A DNA stretch of 64,000 nucleotides. It comes from Periplaneta americana (lineage: Eukaryota > Arthropoda > Insecta > Blattodea > Blattidae). The notes beneath the pieces are model-generated. The model did not search any database. It was not told the origin of the DNA and saw only the letters and a list, made by a program, of their open reading frames with translations. The stretch covers positions 145,478,204-145,542,203 of the forward strand of contig NC_091126.1 in assembly GCF_040183065.1 (NCBI RefSeq), in the 5' to 3' direction. A program made the translations under genes and the position numbers. Shown one piece after another: positions 3,124 to 55,051 of this stretch (within the stretch, counting starts at the first letter, position 1; each line of letters begins with the position of its first letter).

Positions 3124-5097
3124 GTAAGTACTTTATTTGATTATATGAGTACTGTTAATGTAAGACTAACATAAGAATGTTAACAATTGATTTAAAACAC
3201 TTGAAACATTTGTTTACTCTCACAGCGAAGCCATCCTTCCTTCGTGAAGATTGTGTTGTGTTGTTGCATTGATTTAAAACACGTGGAAATAACGTGTTGT
3301 AAGAATTATGTTTAGTTTACATGTTAAACGAAGCGATGTTACTACGTACCTAACAAATATTTTGCGACTTTCAAGTGGAACCTAGTTTGAACGTGAGCCA
3401 TGAATGAATACTGTAAATGACAGTATTCGTATTCGTGAAGGCACGTAGGTAGTTCCCAGTTTCCATAATGGTACTTCAGGATACAATTGCTGGTTATGGA
3501 ACATTACACTCTAAACTTAATTTATTTTTGAGAACTTATCCTGTAGGCAGTTTCTAACTTCGAGTATTGGACAGGCCGTCGTAAATTGGTTAGAGTTGAA
3601 GTTTGTCAGTATTGAAAAGTGTGTGACGTTCGTATAATACACCTGAAGTCTGCAGGCCTAATGCAGATGCGGAAAACACACTTTCGTAAATTTGAATAAG
3701 CGGTACATATTTTTTTATTGTACGTACAATTAAATTAAAATTATGTAACAATGTGTACATTTTAAAGAATAGGTTAATTTTAGATTTAATATTGAGAAAA
3801 CATTCATTGTGTCTGTTAATAGTGTGCTTGGATACCTACCTGAAAAGAATTGTGTAATTATTTTATATTCTTTTTCTGTAATTGAGATTTATTCTTTGAT
3901 CGTGTAGGCTACTTCATTTCTCCTGTTAATTTCGTTACATCATTACCCTTTCTGGCATGAACATGTGTCGCTGACGAACAGTTCTGATTCACAAGGTAAA
4001 CAAACATATTCTGTAGCTTAATGATCCAAACGTTTTATACTGGTAGTTAAAAATATCCTGAGCAGGATCGCATCACAGTTTACGTACACTGCGAGAGAAC
4101 CATATGAATATTATACATTTTCAAACTGAATGTGATGTATTTTAACATGGTAAACATTTGACTGATTGTCACATGCATCTCTTGCTTGAGGAGTTTGTCT
4201 TTAGACAGATTGCCTGTAATATTATTTTCACGCTATATGAAAGTAATAAGCGAAAGTACAGTAATTCCAGTTTTAAGGTTTATGTTTGTGTTACAAGAAA
4301 TTTCAGTAGAAATGGGACATAAAGCAAGGGCAAGTAGGACTACTGACTGACCTCGCGAACATACTGATAATAAACCTAGCCGATATGTTTAAGAACGGAA
4401 ATGAAATTTTAGTAAATATTTATTGTGCCTCTGATTGAGGTTCTGGCTGATAAGTACATCTCTTATCAGGCAGTACATCTCAATTCACGAGTGTCAGAGG
4501 AAGAATAATTGTTTGTATGCATTTGAAGTCTGATTAGTGTATTATGTAGCTAATCGACATTGTGTGCAATTGAAGACGAAATGAACTGGCAACCCTAACC
4601 CATTATCTCCTGGCTTAGTTGCCTCATAATTGGTGCCTTGTTGGTATCACTTGTGAGGTTCAGACCTGTCTTTGTACAGGTGTTGACTAGACAACTAGTA
4701 ATTGTAATTAGCCAATATTGCATTGTGCATTCCAGGTTTGCCAAAATTAGGAAATAAAATCGTATTTATAACACATGAAACTATCACTGAGGTAGTTCCA
4801 CTGATTTCGGAAGAGAAAATAGTTAAATTTATAAGAGATTTTGGAGAAATTGTGGAGATACAGTTCATCGTATGAGCAAGGCATAATGAAAATCTAAAAG
4901 TAACCAAACCTAACCTGTCACAGATTCGTATATGCAAGGTAAGCGGAGTTATTAGACAGAGTTGCAAGAACATTACATTATGATGATTTTTTTCTACACG
5001 TGGACATGCAGTATTTAATTACAAAATTCCGGCCCAGTGTGTTACTGAGGAAAAAAATCCATACGTTAACAATAGGATAAACATATCGGAAAACAGA
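3124..5097. other. no gene recognised; possible intron
   Basis: About 2 kb of AT-rich sequence with no clear repeat or exon. If 3049-3123 is a real exon, this would be its intron. Confidence 0.4.
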
Positions 5098-5372
5098 TAA
5101 ACACACATTGTGGCGCGACAGTTCCTGTAGAATCTTGGTCGCCCTATATATGTCTTTCCAGGAAATTCTGTCCTCTATTTGTCTTCTTCATCTCTTTATT
5201 CCCACCCTTTCCAGATCTCCACAACATCAATCCATCTTCTTCTAAATTTTCTGCCTCCTGGTTTACCATGCAATGCTTTTCTTGGCATTCTTTCGTCAGA
5301 CATTCTGTATACATGTCCCAAACACTTTAACCTCTGCACTTTGATGTTACTAAGTCCATTTCGTTAGAGTTC
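5098..5372 (-). pseudogene. LINE-3 C-terminal fragment
   Basis: Reading the minus strand gives RLKCLGHVYRMSDERMPRKA, then LHGKPGGRKFRRRWIDVV, and after a frameshift DLERVGIKR and EDRISWKDIYRATKILQEL. The pattern (RL...GHV.RM.DER.P..., GRP/GKPGGR....RW.DDL..LGI....) is the conserved tail region downstream of reverse transcriptase in a class of insect non-LTR retrotransposons. It differs from LINE-1 and LINE-2 here, so it is a third lineage. Two stops or frameshifts break it. Confidence 0.7.
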
Positions 5373-5558
5373 GTAAATTGGAAAACAGATAAATGCACTC
5401 ATATTTGACACTTAAGTGGTCGGCATGTGAGTCACGGTAAAATCCTATTCAATCGTCATCTGAATTCTTAGATTACATTCATTTGTGTTTATATTTGACT
5501 AAGTTTAAGTACAACAACGTGTGCAATTGTCCGTAAAATATAATTGTTAAAGCACCGA

Positions 5559-5588
5559 ATAATAATAATAATAATAATAGGCCTAATA

Positions 5589-5646
<58 letters not shown>
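5559..5646. repeat. (AAT)n then (ATT)n microsatellite
   Basis: An AAT run, the bases AGGCCTAATATC, then a longer ATT run: a near-palindromic simple repeat just upstream of the LINE-1 copy. Confidence 0.95.
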
Positions 5647-5647
<1 letters not shown>

Positions 5648-5727
5648 TACTACTTATAGTTACAACTTCGCATTATAAATATAAAAATTTACTTACGGGT
5701 TAATACCTCCTAATACTTACCAAATAT

Positions 5728-6913
5728 TTGTTTGGACTACTTGGAAAGCAGACAGTAATCTACAGGATATTTACAGTGATACCGAAAAGCTGTACTTTAT
5801 GGGAATATTTTTCTGGTTTCAAAAAGGCATATGACTCGGTTAAGAGAGAAGTTTTATATGATATTCTTATTGAATTTGATATTCCCAAGAAACTAGTTCA
5901 ATTAATTAAAATGTGTCTCAGTGAAACTTACAGTAGAGTCCGTATAGGCCAGTTTCTATCTGATGTTTTTCCAATTTGCTGCGAGCTAAAGCAAGGAGAT
6001 GCACTATCACTTTTACTTTTTAACTTTGCTCTAGAATATGCCATTAAGAATGTTCAGGGTAACAGACAGGGTTTGGAATTGAACGGGTTACATCAGCTTC
6101 TTGTCTACGCGGATGACGTGAATTTGTTAGGAGAAAATCCACAAACGATTACGGAAAATATTGAATTTTTACTTGAAGCAAATAAAGCGATAGTTTTGGA
6201 AGTAAATCCCGAAAAGACAAAGTATATGATTATGTCTCATGACCAGAATATTGTACGAAATGGAAACATAAAAATTGGAGATTTATCCTTCGAAGAGGTG
6301 GAAAAATTCAAATATCTTGGAGCAACAGTAACAAATTTAAATGACACTCGGGAGGAAATTACACGCAGAATAAATATGAGAAATGCATGTTGTTATTCGG
6401 TTGAGAAGCTTTTGTCATCTAGTCTGCTGTCAAAATATTCGAAAACTAGAATTATGAAACAGTTATATTACCGGTTGCTCTGTATGGGTGTGAAACTTGG
6501 ATTCTCACTTGGAGAGAGGGACAGAGATTAAGAGTGTTTGAGAATAAGATGCTTAGGAAAATATTTGGGGCTAAGAGGGAGAAAGTTACACAACACAGAA
6601 CTGCACGTATTATATTCTTCACCTGAGATAATTAGGAACATTAAATCGAGACGTTTGGGATGGGCAGGGCATGTAGCACATATGGGCGAATCCAGAAATG
6701 CATATAGAGTGTTAGTTGGGAGACCGGAGGGAAAAAGACCTTTAGGGAGGCCGAGACATAGATGGGAGCATAATATTGAAATGGATTTGAGGGAAGTGAG
6801 ATAAGATGATAGAGGCTGGATTAATCTTGCACAGGATAGGGACCGATGGCGGGCTTATGTGGGGGCGGCAATGAACCTGCGGGTTCCTTAAAAGCCATTT
6901 GTAAGTAAGTAAG
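5728..6913 (+). pseudogene. LINE-1 family reverse transcriptase, 5'-truncated and frameshifted
   Basis: The 267-codon frame 5728-6531 is a reverse-transcriptase domain: FKKAYD (residues 31-36), LKQGDA (87-92, with LSLL where most copies have LSPL), the catalytic YADD box (127-130) and FKYLGATV (194-201). The first 25 or so residues do not match the domain, so the true 5' part is missing. Frameshifts near 6490 and 6585 separate it from the tail region, which resumes in the frame 6538-6804 with IRNIKSRRLGWAGHVAHMGE and GRPEGKRPLGRPRHRW. The 3' UTR ends GGTTCCTTAAAAGCCATTTG then GTAAGTAAGTAAG. The element would make an RT for target-primed reverse transcription if intact; this copy cannot. Confidence 0.9.
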
Positions 6914-11686: not shown

Positions 11687-11930
11687 TCCACACCTATGGA
11701 GTAACGGTTAGCGCGTCTGGCCGCGAAAGCAGGTGGCCCGGGTTCGATTCCCGGTTGGGGAAAGTTACCTGCTTGAAGTTTTTCCGGGGTTTTCCCTCAA
11801 TTCAATATGAGGAATGCTGGGTTACTATCGGTGCTGGACCCCGGACTCATATCACCGGCATTATCACCATCTCATTCAGACGCTAAATAACCTAAGATGT
11901 TGATATAGCGTCGTAAAATAATCTAATAAA
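11687..11930 (+). mobile_element. SINE family A
   Basis: Nearly full-length: CCACACCTATGGAGTAACGG, B box GGTTCGATTCC, central domain with CCGGGGTTTTCCCTCAA, and tail GACGCTAAATAACC to GCGTCGTAAAATAATC. Flanks are AT-rich and I could not settle a target duplication. Confidence 0.88.
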
Positions 11931-12107
11931 AAGATTAAAATGCCACTTTTTGTTTTGATCCCAGAAATGAATATTTTTCGCAGGAACAGCCAATTTTCGG
12001 GAAAATTCGAGAAAAACTTACTGTCATAAATAAGTGTCTATCACATTTCGTGATTATTGCTAATAATAACAAAAATTTCGTGCATATTGCTGTACTATGT
12101 TCGCTGC

Positions 12108-17743: not shown

Positions 17744-18252
17744 ATCTAGTAAAATCGAAAAATCCCTAAGTCTATTTTAAATTATTTGTAATACAGAGCG
17801 ATAGAGAAGTCCCTCCGCAGCTCTGTTAGTTCTAGTAACCCTAGAATACAACCATGTAGAAAGTTGGCACTCCTTTCATTCTGGTTTGACAACCTCACAC
17901 CTCCAGTCCATCATATGCTTAGCGGCCAGTGCTACCACTTGAATTCTCTACCAAATACACTTGAATTCTCAGCCTAGTGGATTCTCGGTTACACAAGCAC
18001 TGCGGAGAGACTTCTTGATCGCACTGTATAAACATTAGTTAAGTAAAATTCGCACCAAATCCAAGACAAAGAGGTAGTACATAACTTATATTGTAGCCTA
18101 TTTAAAATATTACCTACAACATTTCAGGAACATTTTGAAATATCAATCCTCAAATATCTCAGAAACGGAAAAAAGTGACAGTGATTTTTTAAATTAGAAC
18201 CTTCAGTTGAGGCACAAATTGGCGGGCCGTGTGGCAGCCGAGGCAGTGTAAT
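17744..18252. other. no gene recognised
   Basis: No repeat or coding segment recognised. Confidence 0.45.
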
Positions 18253-18434
18253 CACAGTCTAGTATATACAGTCACGAAGCTCAACACGTAGTAAATATGC
18301 ATCCATAAATATTTGCTAACCACTAGGATCGATAATATCGCCTCATTACAGACAATGCGAAACAGTACCGGCACAGTCTATTGCTCCTAGCACCCTCACA
18401 ACTCAAACTTCGTGACTGTATATACTAGACCGTG
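18253..18434 (+). mobile_element. MITE, 180-bp family, copy 2
   Basis: Terminal inverted repeats CACAGTCTAGTATATACAGT and CTGTATATACTAGACCGTG bound a 182-bp non-coding element that matches 175-357, 37973-38152 and 40687-40869. Confidence 0.85.
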
Positions 18435-18810
18435 GCGTAACCCAAGAATATGAAGCGATAGAACGTTTGTAATGTTGTGAAAATTTTCGTAAGGAACGAG
18501 GCTACAGTTTCAATTGAGCAACAATAAGCAGTCGAAAAATGAAATTGGAAGATTTCGCGAGTGAAGAGAGAATTCATTATGTCAAGGGATATGCAGCACA
18601 AATGGGAGCGAACTTATAAGCAATGGATACCTTATATTAAGCATGCCATTCTAACGGACGTATTCACGGATAAAACTTGGACTGTCTCTCTGATACAGCC
18701 TACCTAGATTTTCTCTGTTAAATTTATTTGTATACACTTTAACATTAGTTCATATTGTGTGTGTAGAATATTTGGGTATATTTGTAGTCTGTGAACTATT
18801 GTTGTGATGA
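18435..18810. other. no gene recognised
   Basis: Nothing recognised. Confidence 0.45.
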
Positions 18811-25201: not shown

Positions 25202-25900
25202 CAGGGTGTTTAAAAAATACGGGGCATAATTTCAGGTATGTATTTCCCACATGTAGACAATCAGAATAGTTCATTACAACATGTGTCCGGAAATGCTTTA
25301 TTTCCGAGTTATGGCCTTCACAACATTGAAATTCACCGGAACCATACCTCATGTTTTAGAAGACACTCCACTGATCAATCGTCAACACATTCACTTCTTA
25401 CATGATGGCGCTCCTGCACACTTCAGTCGTACGGATCGCCGGTACTTGGATCGAAGGTTTCCTGATCGATGGATAGGTAGAGGTGGCCCAATTGCTTGGC
25501 CTCCACGCTCACCTGATCTGAACCCTCTCGATTTCTACTTGTGGGGCCATTTAAAATCATTGGTTTATTCGTCTCCGGTGCCTGATTTGGAATCCCTTCG
25601 GAATCGAATTGTGGCATGTTCTGAGGACATACGCAATACTCGTGGAGTTTGGGATCGTGTTCGCAGGTCAATGAGACATCGATGTGAGGTCTGTATTCAA
25701 GCAGGAGGTGGACATTTTGAACATCTTCTGTAATGACAACGGCCTGCGGAAAGAAAAACGTTCCGGTCAATTTCAATGTTGTGAAGGCCATAACTCGGAA
25801 ATGAAGCATTTCCGGACACATGTTGTAATGAACTATTTTGATTGTCTACGTGTGGGAAATACATACCTGAAATTATGCCCCGTATTTTTGAAACACCCTG
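25202..25900 (+). mobile_element. Tc1/mariner-type element with about 140-bp inverted repeats, internally deleted
   Basis: Ends CAGGGTGTTTAAAAAATACG and its complement CGTATTTTTGAAACACCCTG lie between TA duplications (25200-25201, 25901-25902). The inverted repeat continues to about 25341 and 25760. The enclosed transposase frame has lost its N-terminal half, so the 699-bp element is a deletion derivative. It is inserted at or beside the 5' edge of LINE-4. Confidence 0.9.
25338..25733 (+). pseudogene. Tc1/mariner-type transposase, C-terminal catalytic part
   Basis: Open frame to a natural stop. The second catalytic Asp lies in FLHDGAPAHFSR and the third in WPPRSPDLNPLDFYLWGHLK, with 41 residues between them if the final Asp of NPLD is used, so a DD41D-like arrangement (family inference). 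The end VRRSMRHRCEVCIQAGGGHF EHLL matches the usual C-terminus of this group. The first Asp and the helix-turn-helix DNA-binding region are missing because the left inverted repeat runs straight into the middle of the gene. No frameshift is seen, so the deletion looks recent. Confidence 0.88.
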
Positions 25901-37812: not shown

Positions 37813-37972
37813 TAGTAAGAACTTTGAAACAAAATTTTGTTCTTTGCTGAACTCGGTACATAATGATAATTTACATTAAATACATACCTGGAAGACCGAC
37901 CATCACTCGCTAAAGAGGGGCTGAGGCATAAAATGTTATATTTTGCTATGTCATTTCAAAATCGTGTAATAC
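37813..37972. other. spacer between two MITE-like elements
   Basis: Nothing recognised. Confidence 0.4.
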
Positions 37973-38152
37973 CACAGTCTAGTATATACAGTGACGAAGC
38001 TCAATACGTAGTAAATGTGCATCCATAGATAGTTGCTAACCACTAGGATCGCTACTATCGCCTCATTACAGACAATGAGAAATAGTATCTGCACAGTCTT
38101 GTTCCTAGTACTCTCACAACTCAAGCTTTGTGACTGTATATACTAGACTGTG
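37973..38152 (+). mobile_element. MITE, 180-bp family, copy 3
   Basis: CACAGTCTAGTATATACAGT to CTGTATATACTAGACTGTG; AATACC lies on both sides with TA at the edges. The best-preserved inverted termini of the four copies. Confidence 0.88.
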
Positions 38153-38271
38153 GTAATACCAAGAGTGATGATTGTCAGAATCAGAGAACCTTATGTTTTG
38201 TAGCTATTCGGCTGCGGTGTTGAAGTCCACCATGTTGTCAGGGTAACTGTCAATTCATTCGTAGTCAAGTT

Positions 38272-39668: not shown

Positions 39669-39893
39669 ACGCGTCTGGCCGTGAAACCAGGTGGTCCGGG
39701 TTCGATTCCCGGTCAGGGCAGGTTACTTGGTTGAGGTTTTTTCCGGGGTTTCTCTCAACCCAATATGAGCAAATGCTGGGTAACTATCGGTGCTGGACTC
39801 CGAACTCATTTCACCGGCTTTATCATCTTCATTTCATTCAGACGCTAAATAACTTGAGATGTCGATACAGCGTCGTAAAATAACCTACTAAAA
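39669..39893 (+). mobile_element. SINE family A, 5'-shortened
   Basis: Begins within the head at GCGTCTGGCCGTGAAACCAG, B box GGTTCGATTCC, full body and tail to GCGTCGTAAAATAACCTAC, then an A-rich end. Confidence 0.85.
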
Positions 39894-40686
39894 AAAAGAG
39901 AGATCTAGGTCAGCATAGTTTATTTGTACTGGTAAACTATGCATATATTACAAAATTTAATGTAATTTAGTTAAAAATAAGTGCAGTTAATTCTGTAAAA
40001 TTAGTTTGTATATTTTACCTATAGTAAAGTATGTAATTAAGCTAAAGTCAGTAGAATTCTTTATTAGTTCATGGTATTGAATCGTACATCATTGCGCATA
40101 TTCTGATGTGTATGCATATATATGCCACTTTCTGTGAGGTTCGAATTTTCCTTGGACTGATTACATGATTGAGATTTTTCCTAAGTTTTCCACGACTCTA
40201 AGGCGACCTGAGTTGATAACATAATTTGATGTGACTAATAGACAAGAAACGTCATCCGCACGTTAATTCTTGCAACACGTTTTGACGAAGGACAGCAATC
40301 TGTCCACACATACAAACAATGTGTTTCCTCTAGGCTAGGGCTTTCTGCAACAATTACCAATACATGCGGACGTGACTGTGAGTTGTTTAGAAGTTCACTT
40401 CCGGTAAGATATGTGTCGATGTCTGTGCATTCAAGAAACTCGCCAAATGTCTCTGCGTTGTTCTTGCTATAGATATATCTAGATGCAAATTTGTCTGATA
40501 TTATTCAATGTAAGAGTCTTGAAACAGACGATAGAGGAAAAAGAACCGCCTTTTCTTGTTTAGTAGCTCAGTTTGTGTAGCGAAATGTTCGTAATTATTG
40601 AGTACATAATGCATGTTCTTCGATTCTAATCTTGGGAAAGATGCCTATTAATTCACAATTTTAATATATTACATGTGAAGTATTAT
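39894..40686. other. no gene recognised
   Basis: A faint SINE-B-like piece (GATTACATGATTGAGATTTT TCC) lies at about 40158-40180. Otherwise nothing. Confidence 0.4.
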
Positions 40687-40869
40687 CACAGTCTAGTATA
40701 TACTGTTACGAAGCTTGAGTTTATGAGGGTACTAGAAACAATAGACTGTGCAGGTACTATTTCGCATTGTCTGTAATGAGGCGATAGTAGCGATACTAGT
40801 GGTTAGCAACTATGTATGGATGCATGTTTACTACGTATTGAGCTTCGTGACTGTATATACTAGACTGTG
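40687..40869 (-). mobile_element. MITE, 180-bp family, copy 4 (inverted)
   Basis: Matches the other copies as reverse complement (TACTACGTATTGAGCTTCGT near its right end), bounded by CACAG and CTGTG. Confidence 0.87.
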
Positions 40870-41310
40870 GTATTATGTTGTTCTTAAAATAACTATTTAA
40901 TCCGGCATGATTCAATATTGTATATAAAAATCCCACGCGGCTAATGTCAACCTCATTCGGTGATGCAAGATCTGGATAGCGCAATCCTTCCGTCTCTTTC
41001 CATGATCCTTGCACGATTTCTCAGATTTCTTTGAGAATTCTGTGGCATGAATCTGGCGAATCCGTTACCAACCACTACATTCTTTAAATAAGATTTATGT
41101 ACAAATAAGGAAATAAAATTTGAAGCTCCCTTATTGTGTAAGTTTCGTTTACAACACACTACGCATGTAGGCTACAGTAAACAAGAGCCCCTGTATACTG
41201 TATATCGTCGTTGATCTTGCAATAACTTCTATGTGACATATTTATCAATTTTCAGATTTTTGCTCTATTAAATAATTATTTTATTTTATTTTTTTATTTT
41301 TTTTCTTTAT
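40870..41310. other. no gene recognised
   Basis: Nothing recognised. Confidence 0.45.
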
Positions 41311-41418
41311 TTTAATGTACCGAAGTACATATGATATTTCCATGCAGATATGCTGCGTCATCATATGATGAAAGAAATCTATCTGCATGGAAATATCATA
41401 TGTATTTCGGTACATTAA

Positions 41419-41461
<43 letters not shown>

Positions 41462-41775
41462 ATGCGTAAATCACTTCGTGATTTAAGACGGCGCTTATTC
41501 CGTCGGATCCCGGCCAACTAGTCACTCATTACGAGTGCACCTCAGCACATGTGTGGACTTTGGTCCTAGGTTCATAGATATCTATGATGTAGTGCAGAGG
41601 GCGGCCATTAGAGGGAACCCAAAAGTTGGAACTTAAAACTGAGACGATTCTGTCCGACGCCGGGGTGGAATCCGGTGCGGCTTAGTGGATAAAGCGTCAG
41701 CACGTAGAGCTGAAAATCCGGGTTCAAATCCCGGCGCCGGAGAGAATTTTTCTCCGTTCCATTACTCTTTCATCT
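41311..41775 (+). repeat. tRNA-like repeat unit 1, with inverted leader
   Basis: Starts with a 40-50-bp inverted repeat (ATGTACCGAAGTACATATGA...; mirrored at about 41374-41421). A TA run follows (41422-41458), then the unit proper: GATATGCGTAAATCACTTCG, GGATCCCGGCCAACTAGTC, a tRNA cloverleaf (41671-41741), and CTCCGTTCCATTACTCTTTC. Units 2 and 3 lie at 42192-42565 and 42566-42915. Confidence 0.85.
41671..41741 (+). other. tRNA-like cloverleaf 1 (71 nt)
   Basis: Acceptor TCCGGTG/CGCCGGA, D stem GCTT/AAGC, anticodon stem TCAGC/GCTGA with loop ACGTAGA, T stem CCGGG/CCCGG with loop TTCAAAT: all stems pair. The nominal anticodon is GTA (Tyr), but position 33 is C instead of the near-universal U and no CCA is encoded. 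It is embedded in a repeat. A working tRNA is therefore doubtful. Confidence 0.6.
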
Positions 41776-42191
41776 ATTAAATAACTTAAACAGTGATACA
41801 GCAAATAACAAAATCTCCTATAAGTAATTATATTTCTTTGTTTCGAAAATGTAAGAATTCACGGTCTCCAATCGGCTGCCATAGGAGGAATAAATGTGTT
41901 TTTTCTTCCTACTGAAAAATACTATATTTTGCACATAGGAGTTATTGCAGGAACAACGGCGATATGGTACTTGTGGACAGTCGTACGAAATTGTTGCCTA
42001 CATACAGGTGGACTCCCATCAAGAATCGCTCCAAATTTTAATTCCGTATCTGTACAAGCATACAGCAAGCGACAGTTTAGAAATGTTGTAGTCCTTCTAC
42101 ATGCGTGTATATCTTTGTGTCGTGTTATAAGTAGGAGGCAATGAAATATTATAAATACAGTATTTTAAACATGTTATATTTATATATATTA
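41776..42191. other. no gene recognised between repeat units
   Basis: The 82-codon frame 41896-42144 has no family resemblance that I recognise. Confidence 0.4.
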
Positions 42192-42565
42192 TTTTAATGT
42201 ACCGAAGTACATATGATATTTCCATGCAGATATTCTGCGTCATCATGCGATGAAAGAGTAATGGAACGGAGAAAAATTCTTTCCGGCGCCGGGATTTGAA
42301 CCCGGGTTTTCAGCTCTACGTGCTGATGCTTTATCCACTAAGCCACACCGGATACAACCCCGGCGCCGGACAGAATCGTCTCAGATTAAGCTCCAACTCT
42401 TGGGTTCCCTCTAGTGGCCGCCCTCTGCACTACGTCATAGATGTCTATGAACGTAGGACCGAAGTCCACACATGTGCTGAGGTGCACTCGTTATGAGTGA
42501 CTAGTTGGCCGGGATCCGACGGAATAAGCGCCGTCTTAAATCACGAAGTGATTTACGCATATCAT
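42192..42565 (-). repeat. tRNA-like repeat unit 2, inverted
   Basis: Reverse complement of the unit: leader ATGTACCGAAGTACATATGA, then CATGCGATGAAAGAGTAATG, the cloverleaf (42282-42352, minus), ACTAGTTGGCCGGGATCC and CGAAGTGATTTACGCATATC. The 66-codon plus frame here and the 76-codon minus frame at 42670-42900 share a long identical peptide because of the inverted duplication. Confidence 0.88.
42282..42352 (-). other. tRNA-like cloverleaf 2 (71 nt)
   Basis: Same fold as 41671-41741, except that one acceptor pair changes to G/T-type pairing. Loop ACGTAGA, T loop TTCAAAT. Confidence 0.6.
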
Positions 42566-42915
42566 ATATATTATTTTAATGTACCGAAGTACATATGATA
42601 TTTCCATGCAGATATTCTGCGTCATCATGCGATGAAAGAGTAATGGTCGGATCCCGGCCAACTAGTCACTCATAACGAGTGCACCTCAGCACATGTGTGG
42701 ACTTCGGTCCTACGTTCATAGACATATATGACGTAGTACAGAGGGTGGCCACTAGAGGGAACCCAAGAGTTGGAGCTTAATCTGAGACGATTCTGTCCGG
42801 CGCCGGGGTTGTATCCGGTGTGGCTTAGTGGATAAAGCATCAGCACGTAGAGCTGAAAACCCGGGTTCAAATCCCGGCGCCGGAAAGAATTTTTCTCCAT
42901 TCCATTACTCTTTCA
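42566..42915 (+). repeat. tRNA-like repeat unit 3, with inverted leader junction
   Basis: An inverted leader piece (42566-42643) joins abruptly at AGTAATGG/TCGGATCCC to a plus-strand unit with cloverleaf 42814-42884. The junction shows a local inversion with loss of the unit's first part. Confidence 0.85.
42814..42884 (+). other. tRNA-like cloverleaf 3 (71 nt)
   Basis: TCCGGTG acceptor pairs with CGCCGGA; D, anticodon and T stems are intact as in copies 1 and 2; loop ACGTAGA. Box A and box B (GGTTCAAATCC) are present, so polymerase III transcription is plausible (inference). Confidence 0.6.
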
Positions 42916-43506
42916 TCGCATGTTATATTTAGCCCATCGAATCTCTGTGATGATAATCTGTTGAAAATGTATTTATTTTTCAGAAGGTTCGTTATAGCTG
43001 AGATGATCACTAGAATTAGTGACGTGTGATTCCTCGTTTAATTCATTAGAAACAAGAGTAATTTATTATGTATACATATTAATAAAGACCAGCGTTTGGT
43101 CACTGAATGAAGAAAAGAGATCAACTATGCCATGTGGTATAGATGATAAAAACACACACACGGTATAGTCAGCGCAGAAGACAATAGAAAAAGATCACCG
43201 ATGGTAACATGGTTAGATGTCAATTATAAATTTGATTGAAACTGTTCTTTTTACTGACCTGTATAAGAAATTGAAACATACAATCACTTCATAAACACGC
43301 AACACACCACACCTCATCTGACTCCATTTCAATTAGTAAAAATTTGCATGTTCTGGTGGACGAAGATTGTGCCAATGCAAACATCGATGTATTACATTTA
43401 ATGTGCGTATGTACCAGTAACTTGTGAAATTGAAAGACGTTTTCTGAAGAACAAAGCATTGTTTATCCGGAAGGAGAACGTTTTCGTTTGAAATTTTTTT
43501 AAATGT
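42916..43506. other. no gene recognised
   Basis: Nothing recognised. Confidence 0.45.
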
Positions 43507-51452: not shown

Positions 51453-51684
51453 GACCACGCTCTCTTCTATTGAATATTGTGTAATCAAATGACTTTTATA
51501 TAGTCATCACGTAGATACTTATTAATGGAGAAGAATTCGTTCCGGCACCGGGTATTGAACCCAGGTCCCTTAGCTTGGCGCGCTGAGTGCTTTTACCATC
51601 TGAGGAGCTATGCTGGAAACCGATCAACAGCGTCGGCTGAACTCTCCTCTGTATTATCAATGACCTACCTACATCTTAGACATA

Positions 51685-52700
51685 CAGGGTGATTCACGAG
51701 GATTTACAGTTACTTACGAAGCTTATTTCCGAAGACATTCTGAGCAAAAAAGTCGTATAAACATGTGTCCTAATCTCAATATTTTTAGAGTTACACTAAT
51801 TTGAAGTTGTTAGTAAAATATATTTCTTCTTTAGTTTTAAGGTTAAAAGAATATTACAAATAGAGAATGGACTATTCAGAAGTATAATTTCTTTAATTGG
51901 CTAGTGTTCAGAAGCAAAAAAATGTGTTGTTAATTGCTTTGTACAGATTTTGTTTTTCAATTTTTAACTAAAATTTAGTCCACACCTGTGGAGTAACGGT
52001 TAGCGCGTCTGACCGCGAAACCAGGTGGTCCGGGTTCGAATTCCGGTTGGGACAAGTTACCTGGTTGAGGTTTTTCTGGGAGTTTTCCCTCAACCCAATA
52101 TGAGCAAATGCTGGGTAACTATCGGTGCTGGACCCCGGACTCATTTCACCGGCATTATCGCCTTCATTTCATTCCACGCTAAATAACCTAAGATTTTAAT
52201 ACAGCGTCGTAAAATAACCCACTAAAAACTAAAAATTACACCATTCTTATGCACTTATCACAAAAATTGTTACAAATCGTACGACTTTAGGAACTTGATT
52301 GTTTACAGTTTAATTAAGCGTCCTAGTGTAAATCTTAGAAGAATTTACAAGAGCGGCGTGATTTGTAACAATTGTTGTGATAAATGCGTAAGAAAATGTA
52401 ATTTTGTAGTTAAAAATGGGTAAAAAAAATTTACGGAGCAATTATGGAATTCACAACATATTTTTTAGCTTCAGAATACGGGCTAATTAAAGAAGTGATA
52501 CTCCTGAAGAGTTCATTCTTTATTTGTAATATTCTTTTACTCTTAAAAACTCAAGAATAATGGTATTTTACAAACAACTTCAAAATAGTTTAGCTCTGAA
52601 AATATTGAGATTAGGACCCATGTTCATATGACATTTTTTGCTGAGAATGTCTTCGGAAATAAGCTCTGTAAGTAACGGTAAATCCTCGTGAATCACTCTG
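51685..52700. mobile_element. foldback element with CAGGGTGATTCACGAGG ends
   Basis: Termini CAGGGTGATTCACGAGGATT and AATCCTCGTGAATCACTCTG between TA dinucleotides (51683-51684, 52701-52702). The arms are complementary throughout (TTCCGAAGACATTCTGAGCA; CACAAAAATTGTTACAAATC near the centre, about 52320) once the SINE is removed. Confidence 0.87.
51978..52229 (+). mobile_element. SINE family A nested in foldback arm
   Basis: GTCCACACCTGTGGAGTAAC, B box GGTTCGAATTCC, body and tail to GCGTCGTAAAATAACCCAC. An AACTAAAA(T/A)TTA duplication flanks it (one mismatch). The opposite arm lacks it, giving an internal empty site. Confidence 0.9.
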
Positions 52701-52848
52701 TATGTTTTGATGCTACAAAGGAGGAGAGTTCGGCCGGTGCTGTGGATCGGGTTCCAGCATAGCTCACATGGTAAGAGCACTCAGCACGCAAAGCTGAGCG
52801 TCCTGGGTTCGATTCGCGGTGCCAGAACATTTTTTTTTTTCCATTAAT

Positions 52849-54792: not shown

Positions 54793-54806
54793 GAATCAGG
54801 CTAAAG

Positions 54807-55051
54807 TCCACATCTGTGGAGTAACGGCTAGCACGTCTGGCTGCGAAACCAGGTGGCCCGGGTTCGAATCTCTGTCGGGGCAAGTTACCTGGTTGAGGTT
54901 TTTTCCGGGGTTTTCCCCTAAACGCAATATGAGCAAATGCTGGGTAACTATCGGTGCTGGACCCCGGACTCTCTTCACCGGCATTATCACCTTCACTTCA
55001 GTCAGACTGTAAATAACAGCGTCGTAAAATAACCCACAAAAAAATAAAAGA
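54807..55051 (+). mobile_element. SINE family A, complete
   Basis: Perfect 14-bp duplication GAATCAGGCTAAAG (54793-54806, 55052-55065). Head TCCACATCTGTGGAGTAACG, B box GGTTCGAATCTC, body, shortened tail ending AACAGCGTCGTAAAATAACC and an A-rich end. Confidence 0.94.

Follow-up and report, generated by a model that had tools for sequence, protein, structure and literature searches.

Three tRNA-like cloverleaves lie close together, in direct and inverted orientation, in the stretch of 64,000 nucleotides of the Periplaneta americana genome analysed here (the window). Do they belong to one rearranged tandem array or to elements that inserted separately, and what kind of element carries them? The initial annotation had recorded the three cloverleaves and an anticodon loop reading ACGTAGA, with C at position 33, and both points were confirmed. 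ARAGORN identified each cloverleaf as tRNA-Tyr(GTA), the Rfam tRNA model matched them with 55, 62.9 and 62.9 bits (E values for the whole window 4.2e-9 for the 55-bit match and 2.9e-11 for those of 62.9 bits), and the loop with its C33 is read directly from the window. The unit copies around them, present in both orientations, had been described as a tandem array with local inversions and a unit of about 450 bp. Neither description held: the unit is 382 bp long, and the copies belong to two insertions that have their own target duplications and are separated by about 0.4 kb (Table 1). A single rearranged array is ruled out, since two pairs of flanks indicate two separate insertions.

Both insertions, A and B, consist of one inverted and one sense part. 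Their target duplications are perfect, 12 bp for A (TCTATTAAATAA) and 13 bp for B (CATGTTATATTTA), and possibly 1-4 bp shorter, as the end of the unit could also account for the inner bases of the right-hand copies. The RNA of the unit folds better than 100 of 100 shuffled sequences on both strands, with a z of -8.5 in the sense of the tRNA and of -6.5 on the other strand; another copy of the unit gave a z of -6.5. Insertion A lies inside the loop of an older inverted repeat (41098-41255/41912-42056; 54 nt at 80% and 29 nt at 86%).

Table 1. Features of the two insertions and of the second family in the window (positions in the window; unit positions refer to the complete 382-nt unit of insertion B, which served as query)
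Feature	Position	Strand	Basis or remark
Target duplication A, left copy (TCTATTAAATAA)	41264..41275	.	Flank comparison
Insertion A (older)	41276..41772	-	BLAST and nhmmer of unit against window; bounded by TCTATTAAATAA
Insertion A, AT-rich end	41276-41306		
Insertion A, end fragment, unit 378-310	41307-41375	minus	
Insertion A, unit 314-382	41358-41427	plus	Followed by (TA)n
Insertion A, unit 1-318	41456-41774	plus	
tRNA-like gene, insertion A	41671..41742	+	ARAGORN; Rfam, 55 bits
Target duplication A, right copy	41773..41784	.	First 2 bases also readable as unit end
Target duplication B, left copy (CATGTTATATTTA)	42170..42182	.	Flank comparison
Insertion B	42183..42918	-	BLAST/nhmmer; bounded by CATGTTATATTTA
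Insertion B, complete unit 1-382 (query)	42566-42185	minus	
T5 run 3' of tRNA, unit 291-295	42272..42276	-	Possible Pol III stop
tRNA-like gene of full unit, unit 215-286	42281..42352	-	ARAGORN; Rfam
Constrained segment over unit junction, unit 321-382|1-112	42455..42628	-	Fisher p=0.0009 against unit 113-320
Insertion B, unit 303-382	42646-42567	minus	
Insertion B, unit 47-323	42646-42922	plus	
tRNA-like gene, other part of insertion B	42814..42885	+	ARAGORN; Rfam
Target duplication B, right copy	42919..42931	.	CATG also readable as unit end
r1, diverged tRNA module, second family	51521..51655	-	21.8 bits, below Rfam cut-off
r2, diverged tRNA module, second family	52715..52848	+	26.8 bits, below Rfam cut-off

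A first look at the 3.23-Gb assembly gave 2703 candidates for the 382-nt unit, the best 40 of which were scored. Each of these 40 loci contains at least one near-complete unit (at least 378 of 382 positions) with an identity of at least 97%. All but the window's own locus were fetched with 1.5 kb on either side, and the resulting 39 copies represent the best-scoring part of the family, chosen for a full unit. They revealed a fixed insertion layout throughout the genome, which had been overlooked in the earlier reading. In 30 of the 39 copies, an inverted part that begins at unit 315-325 runs to a variable inversion point and is joined there to a sense part that ends at unit 380-382. The outer end of the inverted part was at unit 322 in 11, 319 in 8 and 325 in 4 of these 30 canonical loci; that of the sense part was at 382 in 27. 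The canonical inverted end is absent from nine copies, which were left out of the counts of end positions. Inverted parts measured 54-1280 nt (median 253) and exceeded one unit in 6 of 30 loci; sense parts measured 270-1128 nt (median 468). At the inversion point the two parts overlap by 1-18 nt in 25 of the 30 loci. No sense-side end was found at unit 123-258 (0/30). The distribution of these ends was not uniform (KS p=0.0002; p=0.08 for the inverted side), which we attribute to the selection of copies with a full unit.

Target duplications were common. Excluding the locus L026, which runs off its stretch, the two flanks shared a word of at least 9 bp in 28 of 38 loci, compared with 36 of 1444 mismatched flank pairs. 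The most frequent length was 12 bp (exactly 12 in 21 loci), and in 10 of the 38 a long common word was absent. Unit copies also carry a (TA)-rich end. The element is real, young and regular. Dispersed units with target duplications had been named beforehand as the mark of a normal SINE; such units do exist, yet the shape of the insertions is not that of a normal SINE.

Two or more adjacent full units were present in 7 of the 39 loci and one in the others; L026 contains four full units plus an incomplete one cut off by the edge of its stretch. In 39 windows around head-to-tail junctions the junctions were much alike, and in L039 both junctions carry an identical private insertion of 5 nt. Agreement between the segments of one insertion was measured at 12 polymorphic sites of the unit. 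Head-to-tail segments, which have the same orientation, agreed in 354 of 373 comparisons; 500 null draws gave a mean of 0.727 and a maximum of 0.783. Between inverted and sense segments the agreement was 368 of 391 (mean of the null 0.682, maximum 0.737). Most private variants occurred in a single segment (220, with 24 shared), which fits an origin of the majority after insertion. Shared private variants are weak evidence for a single template, and we relied on the polymorphic sites instead. The template of the unit behaves like a tandem or circular RNA; a circle and a homogeneous tandem transcript both fit these data, which do not separate the two.

Variants were divided into lineage-level variants, found in at least two loci or in at least two segments of one locus, and variants of a single segment. 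At non-CpG sites, lineage-level variants occupied 18 of 152 sites in unit 321-382|1-112 and 47 of 178 in unit 113-320 (Fisher p=0.0009, a somewhat flattering value, as the regions were drawn after the density of variants had been viewed). For single-segment variants the corresponding numbers were 60 of 152 and 80 of 178 (p=0.37). Since the first segment is poorer in lineage-level but not in single-segment variants, a selected segment crosses the unit junction 382|1, which is present only where the unit follows itself. A hot spot of variants was seen just upstream of the tRNA, at unit 193-214 (window 42374-42353, minus strand), and of the family's 12 common polymorphic sites, 8 are located at unit 196-211.

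The tRNA-like part gave a different picture within the family. The initial annotation had the stems kept while the surrounding unit diverged; however, the sequence around the tRNA is conserved between the window copies about as well as the tRNA itself (u2 and u3 are 98.6% identical over 277 nt and u2 and u1 94.7% over 319 nt), and the stems are not preferentially preserved. Among the 39 copies, 9 of 32 stem sites have lineage-level variants, compared with 38 of 146 neighbouring non-CpG sites (Fisher p=0.83). Within-family selection on the stems was rejected, as they do not differ from their neighbours. Among 89 tRNA segments the A box was exact in 69 and the B box in 76, and the T run after the tRNA was exactly 5 in 81 and longer in 2. 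The loop CACGTAG was exact in 81 of 89 segments and C33 was present in 84 (counted from the loop table). Judged by its sequence, the tRNA-like gene is not a decoding tRNA, because position 33 is C and not U. It occupies unit 215-286 of 382 and not the 5' end. A Pol III transcript ending at the T5 run would stop before both start sites and could not be the template, so at best the gene would act as a promoter with read-through, give a separate small product or serve as a processing signal. Exact-pattern scans of viral contigs and genome contigs gave 0 matches, and BLAST against phage and plasmid sequences gave nothing beyond short, weak matches to the tRNA part.

Two diverged tRNA modules, r1 and r2, are located at 51.5 and 52.8 kb of the window in inverted order (Table 1). 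A first look for the r2 module in the genome gave 1943 candidates, 40 of which were scored; the 39 places other than r2 itself were 84-91% identical, and 5 of the 40 had an adjacent inverted partner. Fourteen of the 39 were fetched. They showed a unit of about 235 nt that has a (TA)-rich end and two alternative outer ends, one near 142-145 and one near 228-236. A run of at least 5 T followed the tRNA in 12 of the 14, and candidate target duplications of 8 bp were present in 3 and none in 11, these being older copies. The u family (that of the 382-nt unit) and the r family have in common the tRNA together with about 40 nt on its 5' side and about 15-20 nt on its 3' side, T run included. The second family is older, and shares the tRNA module and the inverted layout. 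In the window, the r modules flank inverted arms of 457 and 450 nt that are 78% identical and begin with ACAGGGTGATTCACGAGG (51521-52848); a copy of an abundant SINE lies between them (51978-52228). The arms may be transduced flanking DNA, since in the 14 loci the shared part ends close upstream of the module.

For a comparison of the stems, 11 u sequences (2 from the window and 9 from chosen loci) were set against 16 r sequences (14 loci, r1 and r2). Between the commonest pairs of the two families, two had changed on both sides (acceptor 7 from G-C to A-U, D4 from U-A to C-G) and in four more the change was one-sided; for one of the latter, acceptor 4, the commonest r state was the non-standard A-C (7/16). 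Standard pairs made up 227 of 231 cells in u and 300 of 336 in r, and C was found at position 33 in 14 of the 16 r sequences. That the module was kept while the rest of the element changed argues for a use, and these sequences lend some support to a long-term retention of the cloverleaf in both families; an alternative would be that the two families took it from two source tRNA genes.

Other repeats were seen in the window. Another dispersed repeat headed by a tRNA occurs at 1014-1264, 11687-11939, 39670-39905, 51978-52227, 54806-55048 and other places (32.8 bits with the Rfam tRNA model for 1018-1090). Four copies were seen of a short repeat that has inverted ends and is about 185-195 nt long (175-361, 18251-18435, 37964-38159 and 40679-40875). 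By eye, the open frame 25281-25733 resembles the C-terminal part of a mariner/Tc-type transposase. For a reverse transcriptase (RT) fragment at 5728-6528, 112 of 120 among the matches listed were Periplaneta americana proteins, with up to 86% identity.

The layout of the insertions resembles that of Penelope-like elements (PLEs). The PLE protein is described as cutting and extending both target strands and starting at two adjacent internal sites of its RNA; PLEs have a 'tail' between the two start sites, AT-rich targets and a tandem organisation (PMC11167929). This two-site internal priming has so far been demonstrated in vitro for one lizard enzyme (PMC11167929). Bdelloid PLEs are reported with inverted pLTRs, a 'tail' and duplications of 9-10 bp (PMC3846280). 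The cockroach genome has an autonomous PLE carrying both RT and GIY-YIG. Among 150 scored of 7668 candidates, 108 matched GIY-YIG, and all 9 neighbouring pairs at most 5 kb apart were in the order minus, plus, which is the order of an inverted part followed by a sense part. One frame of 604 aa contains both RVT_1 and GIY-YIG, whereas for a second, 569 aa long, the same cut-off gave RVT_1 alone. Two PLE loci, L071 and L072, out of the 108 matches were fetched at length. L072 has an inverted end of 288 nt, offset by 44 nt from the other end, a direct repeat of 74 nt and a target duplication of 12 bp (TAAACTGTTTTA). The duplications of the unit resemble it (mode 12 bp, 21/38, against 12 bp in this one PLE). 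L071 has no inverted end; this copy lies within an array of a 125-bp satellite (L071:1814-1905 and 4816-6001). The unit was compared with 32 PLE stretches, 30 of them about 3.2 kb and two 6.0-6.5 kb in length, and gave short matches only. A weak profile match in L072 (5142-5244, E 9e-6) is a tRNA-like stretch outside the element. Homology of the ends is said, of LTR-type elements, to be no fixed requirement for mobilisation in trans (PMC10886601).

Taken together, we consider it very probable that the unit, about 382 nt long, is a PLE-mobilised, non-autonomous retroelement similar to retrozymes, with a complete tRNA-like gene of the Pol III type and no detectable ribozyme. An RNA in which the unit follows itself, as a circle or a tandem transcript, would be bound by a PLE reverse transcriptase with GIY-YIG nuclease, and both target strands would be cut about 12 bp apart. 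Priming would then take place at unit 382 from one end and, within the RNA, at unit 315-325 from the other. The two cDNAs would run backwards over variable distances, sometimes past whole units, and would be joined to each other, mostly at microhomology. The tRNA-like gene probably provides a Pol III promoter, an RNA-processing signal or both. The earlier idea of an array-type RNA element rather than an ordinary SINE stands in so far as the insertions do not have the form of a SINE and the template is tandem or circular in character, but what is found is not one array.

The source of the tandem units divides the possibilities further. Mobilisation by PLEs with linear transcripts of genomic arrays as template, and no circular RNA, has about an even chance. 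Loci of a lizard PLE yield mRNA of several copies (PMC11167929), and long arrays of the unit do exist, as in L026; against this, only 7 of 39 loci have at least two adjacent full units, and the private 5-nt insertion at both junctions of L039 is simple to obtain from a circle, although a homogeneous source array would do likewise. For a circular template, host tRNA enzymes (RNase P, tRNase Z, an anticodon-loop nuclease and the RtcB ligase) might replace the ribozyme, cutting multimers and closing them into circles of 382 nt that the PLE reverse transcriptase would read round and round. This is a doubtful proposal; if true, it would mean a class of retroelements that form circles with no ribozyme and go back at least two families.

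A tRNA SINE mobilised by a LINE, with unusually frequent twin priming and tail-to-head insertion, would explain the target duplications, the (TA)-rich end and the A and B boxes kept exact in 69 and 76 of 89 segments. LINE twin priming yields inverted 5' parts; to our knowledge, twin priming at a single fixed site is not expected, and here the second priming site was at unit 315-325 in 30 of 30 loci. The internal position of the tRNA, the T5 run behind it and a host PLE (L072) with the same layout also speak against a LINE, and we regard this origin as unlikely. Rearrangement of a foldback element or satellite by recombination of DNA, with no RNA step, is very improbable: inverted and tandem copies do lie side by side, but the insertions are dispersed, their outer ends fixed and their duplications mostly of 12 bp, and the inner ends vary, with overlaps of 1-18 nt in 25 of 30 loci. 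We give almost no credence to a TRIM element of the Helenus type. The tRNA-like sequence within a repeated part would fit such an element, and tandem arrays are reported for one Helenus (PMC10886601); here, however, the outer ends are inverted relative to each other, the duplications are mostly of 12 bp against 4 bp in animal Helenus (PMC10886601), and no primer-binding site was recognised by eye.

PLEs are among the least understood retroelements of eukaryotes, and there are hardly any descriptions of small elements that depend on them. In the many young insertions of this family, the two start sites, the point of joining and the duplication are visible in the sequence itself, so that two-site internal priming becomes testable on a natural, short substrate. 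It also links tRNA SINEs, TRIMs with a tRNA and retrozymes with circular RNA, which have been treated separately so far. Programs that search for tRNAs may report units as tRNA-Tyr genes, as ARAGORN did here. Tandem units of 150-450 bp, the PLE layout, non-autonomous PLEs and non-SINE elements with a tRNA are each known; among the titles and abstracts listed in the literature searched, outside subscription papers and Repbase, none described their combination in a PLE-mobilised element with a tRNA.

The closest known systems are the non-LTR retrozymes of metazoans (Cervera and de la Pena 2020, PMC7229834), which are alike in their tandem units of 150-450 bp (here 382 nt), target duplications of more than 4 bp, strongly folded RNA and lack of an LTR organisation. 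PLEs are named there as their likely mobilisers. In these retrozymes a hammerhead cuts the multimer and a tRNA ligase most likely closes the circle (PMC7229834). They differ in having a type I hammerhead, none being detected in the unit, which instead has a tRNA gene. Most copies of the unit (30/39) also have an inverted part at one end. Circular RNA in tissue is a mark of the retrozymes; for the unit it would be a possible form. No Rfam ribozyme matched the unit, so a ribozyme known to Rfam was rejected; for the hammerhead there was no match at E up to 1 or up to 5, and the core CTGANGA was absent from both strands of the window unit. Rfam found no hammerhead in L071 and L072 either, and a Hammerhead_1 search of the genome gave none in 72 scored of 394108 candidates, the control genomes likewise having no match; this negative, which has no positive control, applies to the scored candidates and not to the genome as a whole. 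By eye, unit 319-352 resembles a hammerhead without C3. Below-threshold matches to miRNA families in Rfam were taken as chance matches to hairpins.

Helenus TRIMs (Kojima 2024, PMC10886601) are likewise small and non-autonomous, with an internal tRNA-derived sequence that keeps conserved A and B boxes and is not a functional tRNA; the unit differs from them by its duplications of 12 instead of 4 bp, its inverted end and its PLE rather than Gypsy layout. The cockroach tRNA SINEs Sbg1-9 (PMC9191728) share a tRNA-derived Pol III promoter, dispersed copies and target duplications. They are set apart here by their description rather than by sequence: an Sbg element has 11 bp in front of its A box, whereas 215 nt precede the tRNA in the unit. 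Short non-autonomous Penelope elements of heliconiine butterflies (PMC6685494) show that non-autonomous PLEs are known in insects, and the accessible text mentions no tRNA in them. With autonomous PLEs the unit shares two start sites with a tail between them, an inverted end and partial tandem copies (PMC11167929, PMC3846280); it differs in encoding no protein, in the lack of a common sequence in the stretches compared, and in the spacing of its start sites, which lie about 60 nt apart, compared with 44 nt in L072 and published tails of 30-40 bp.
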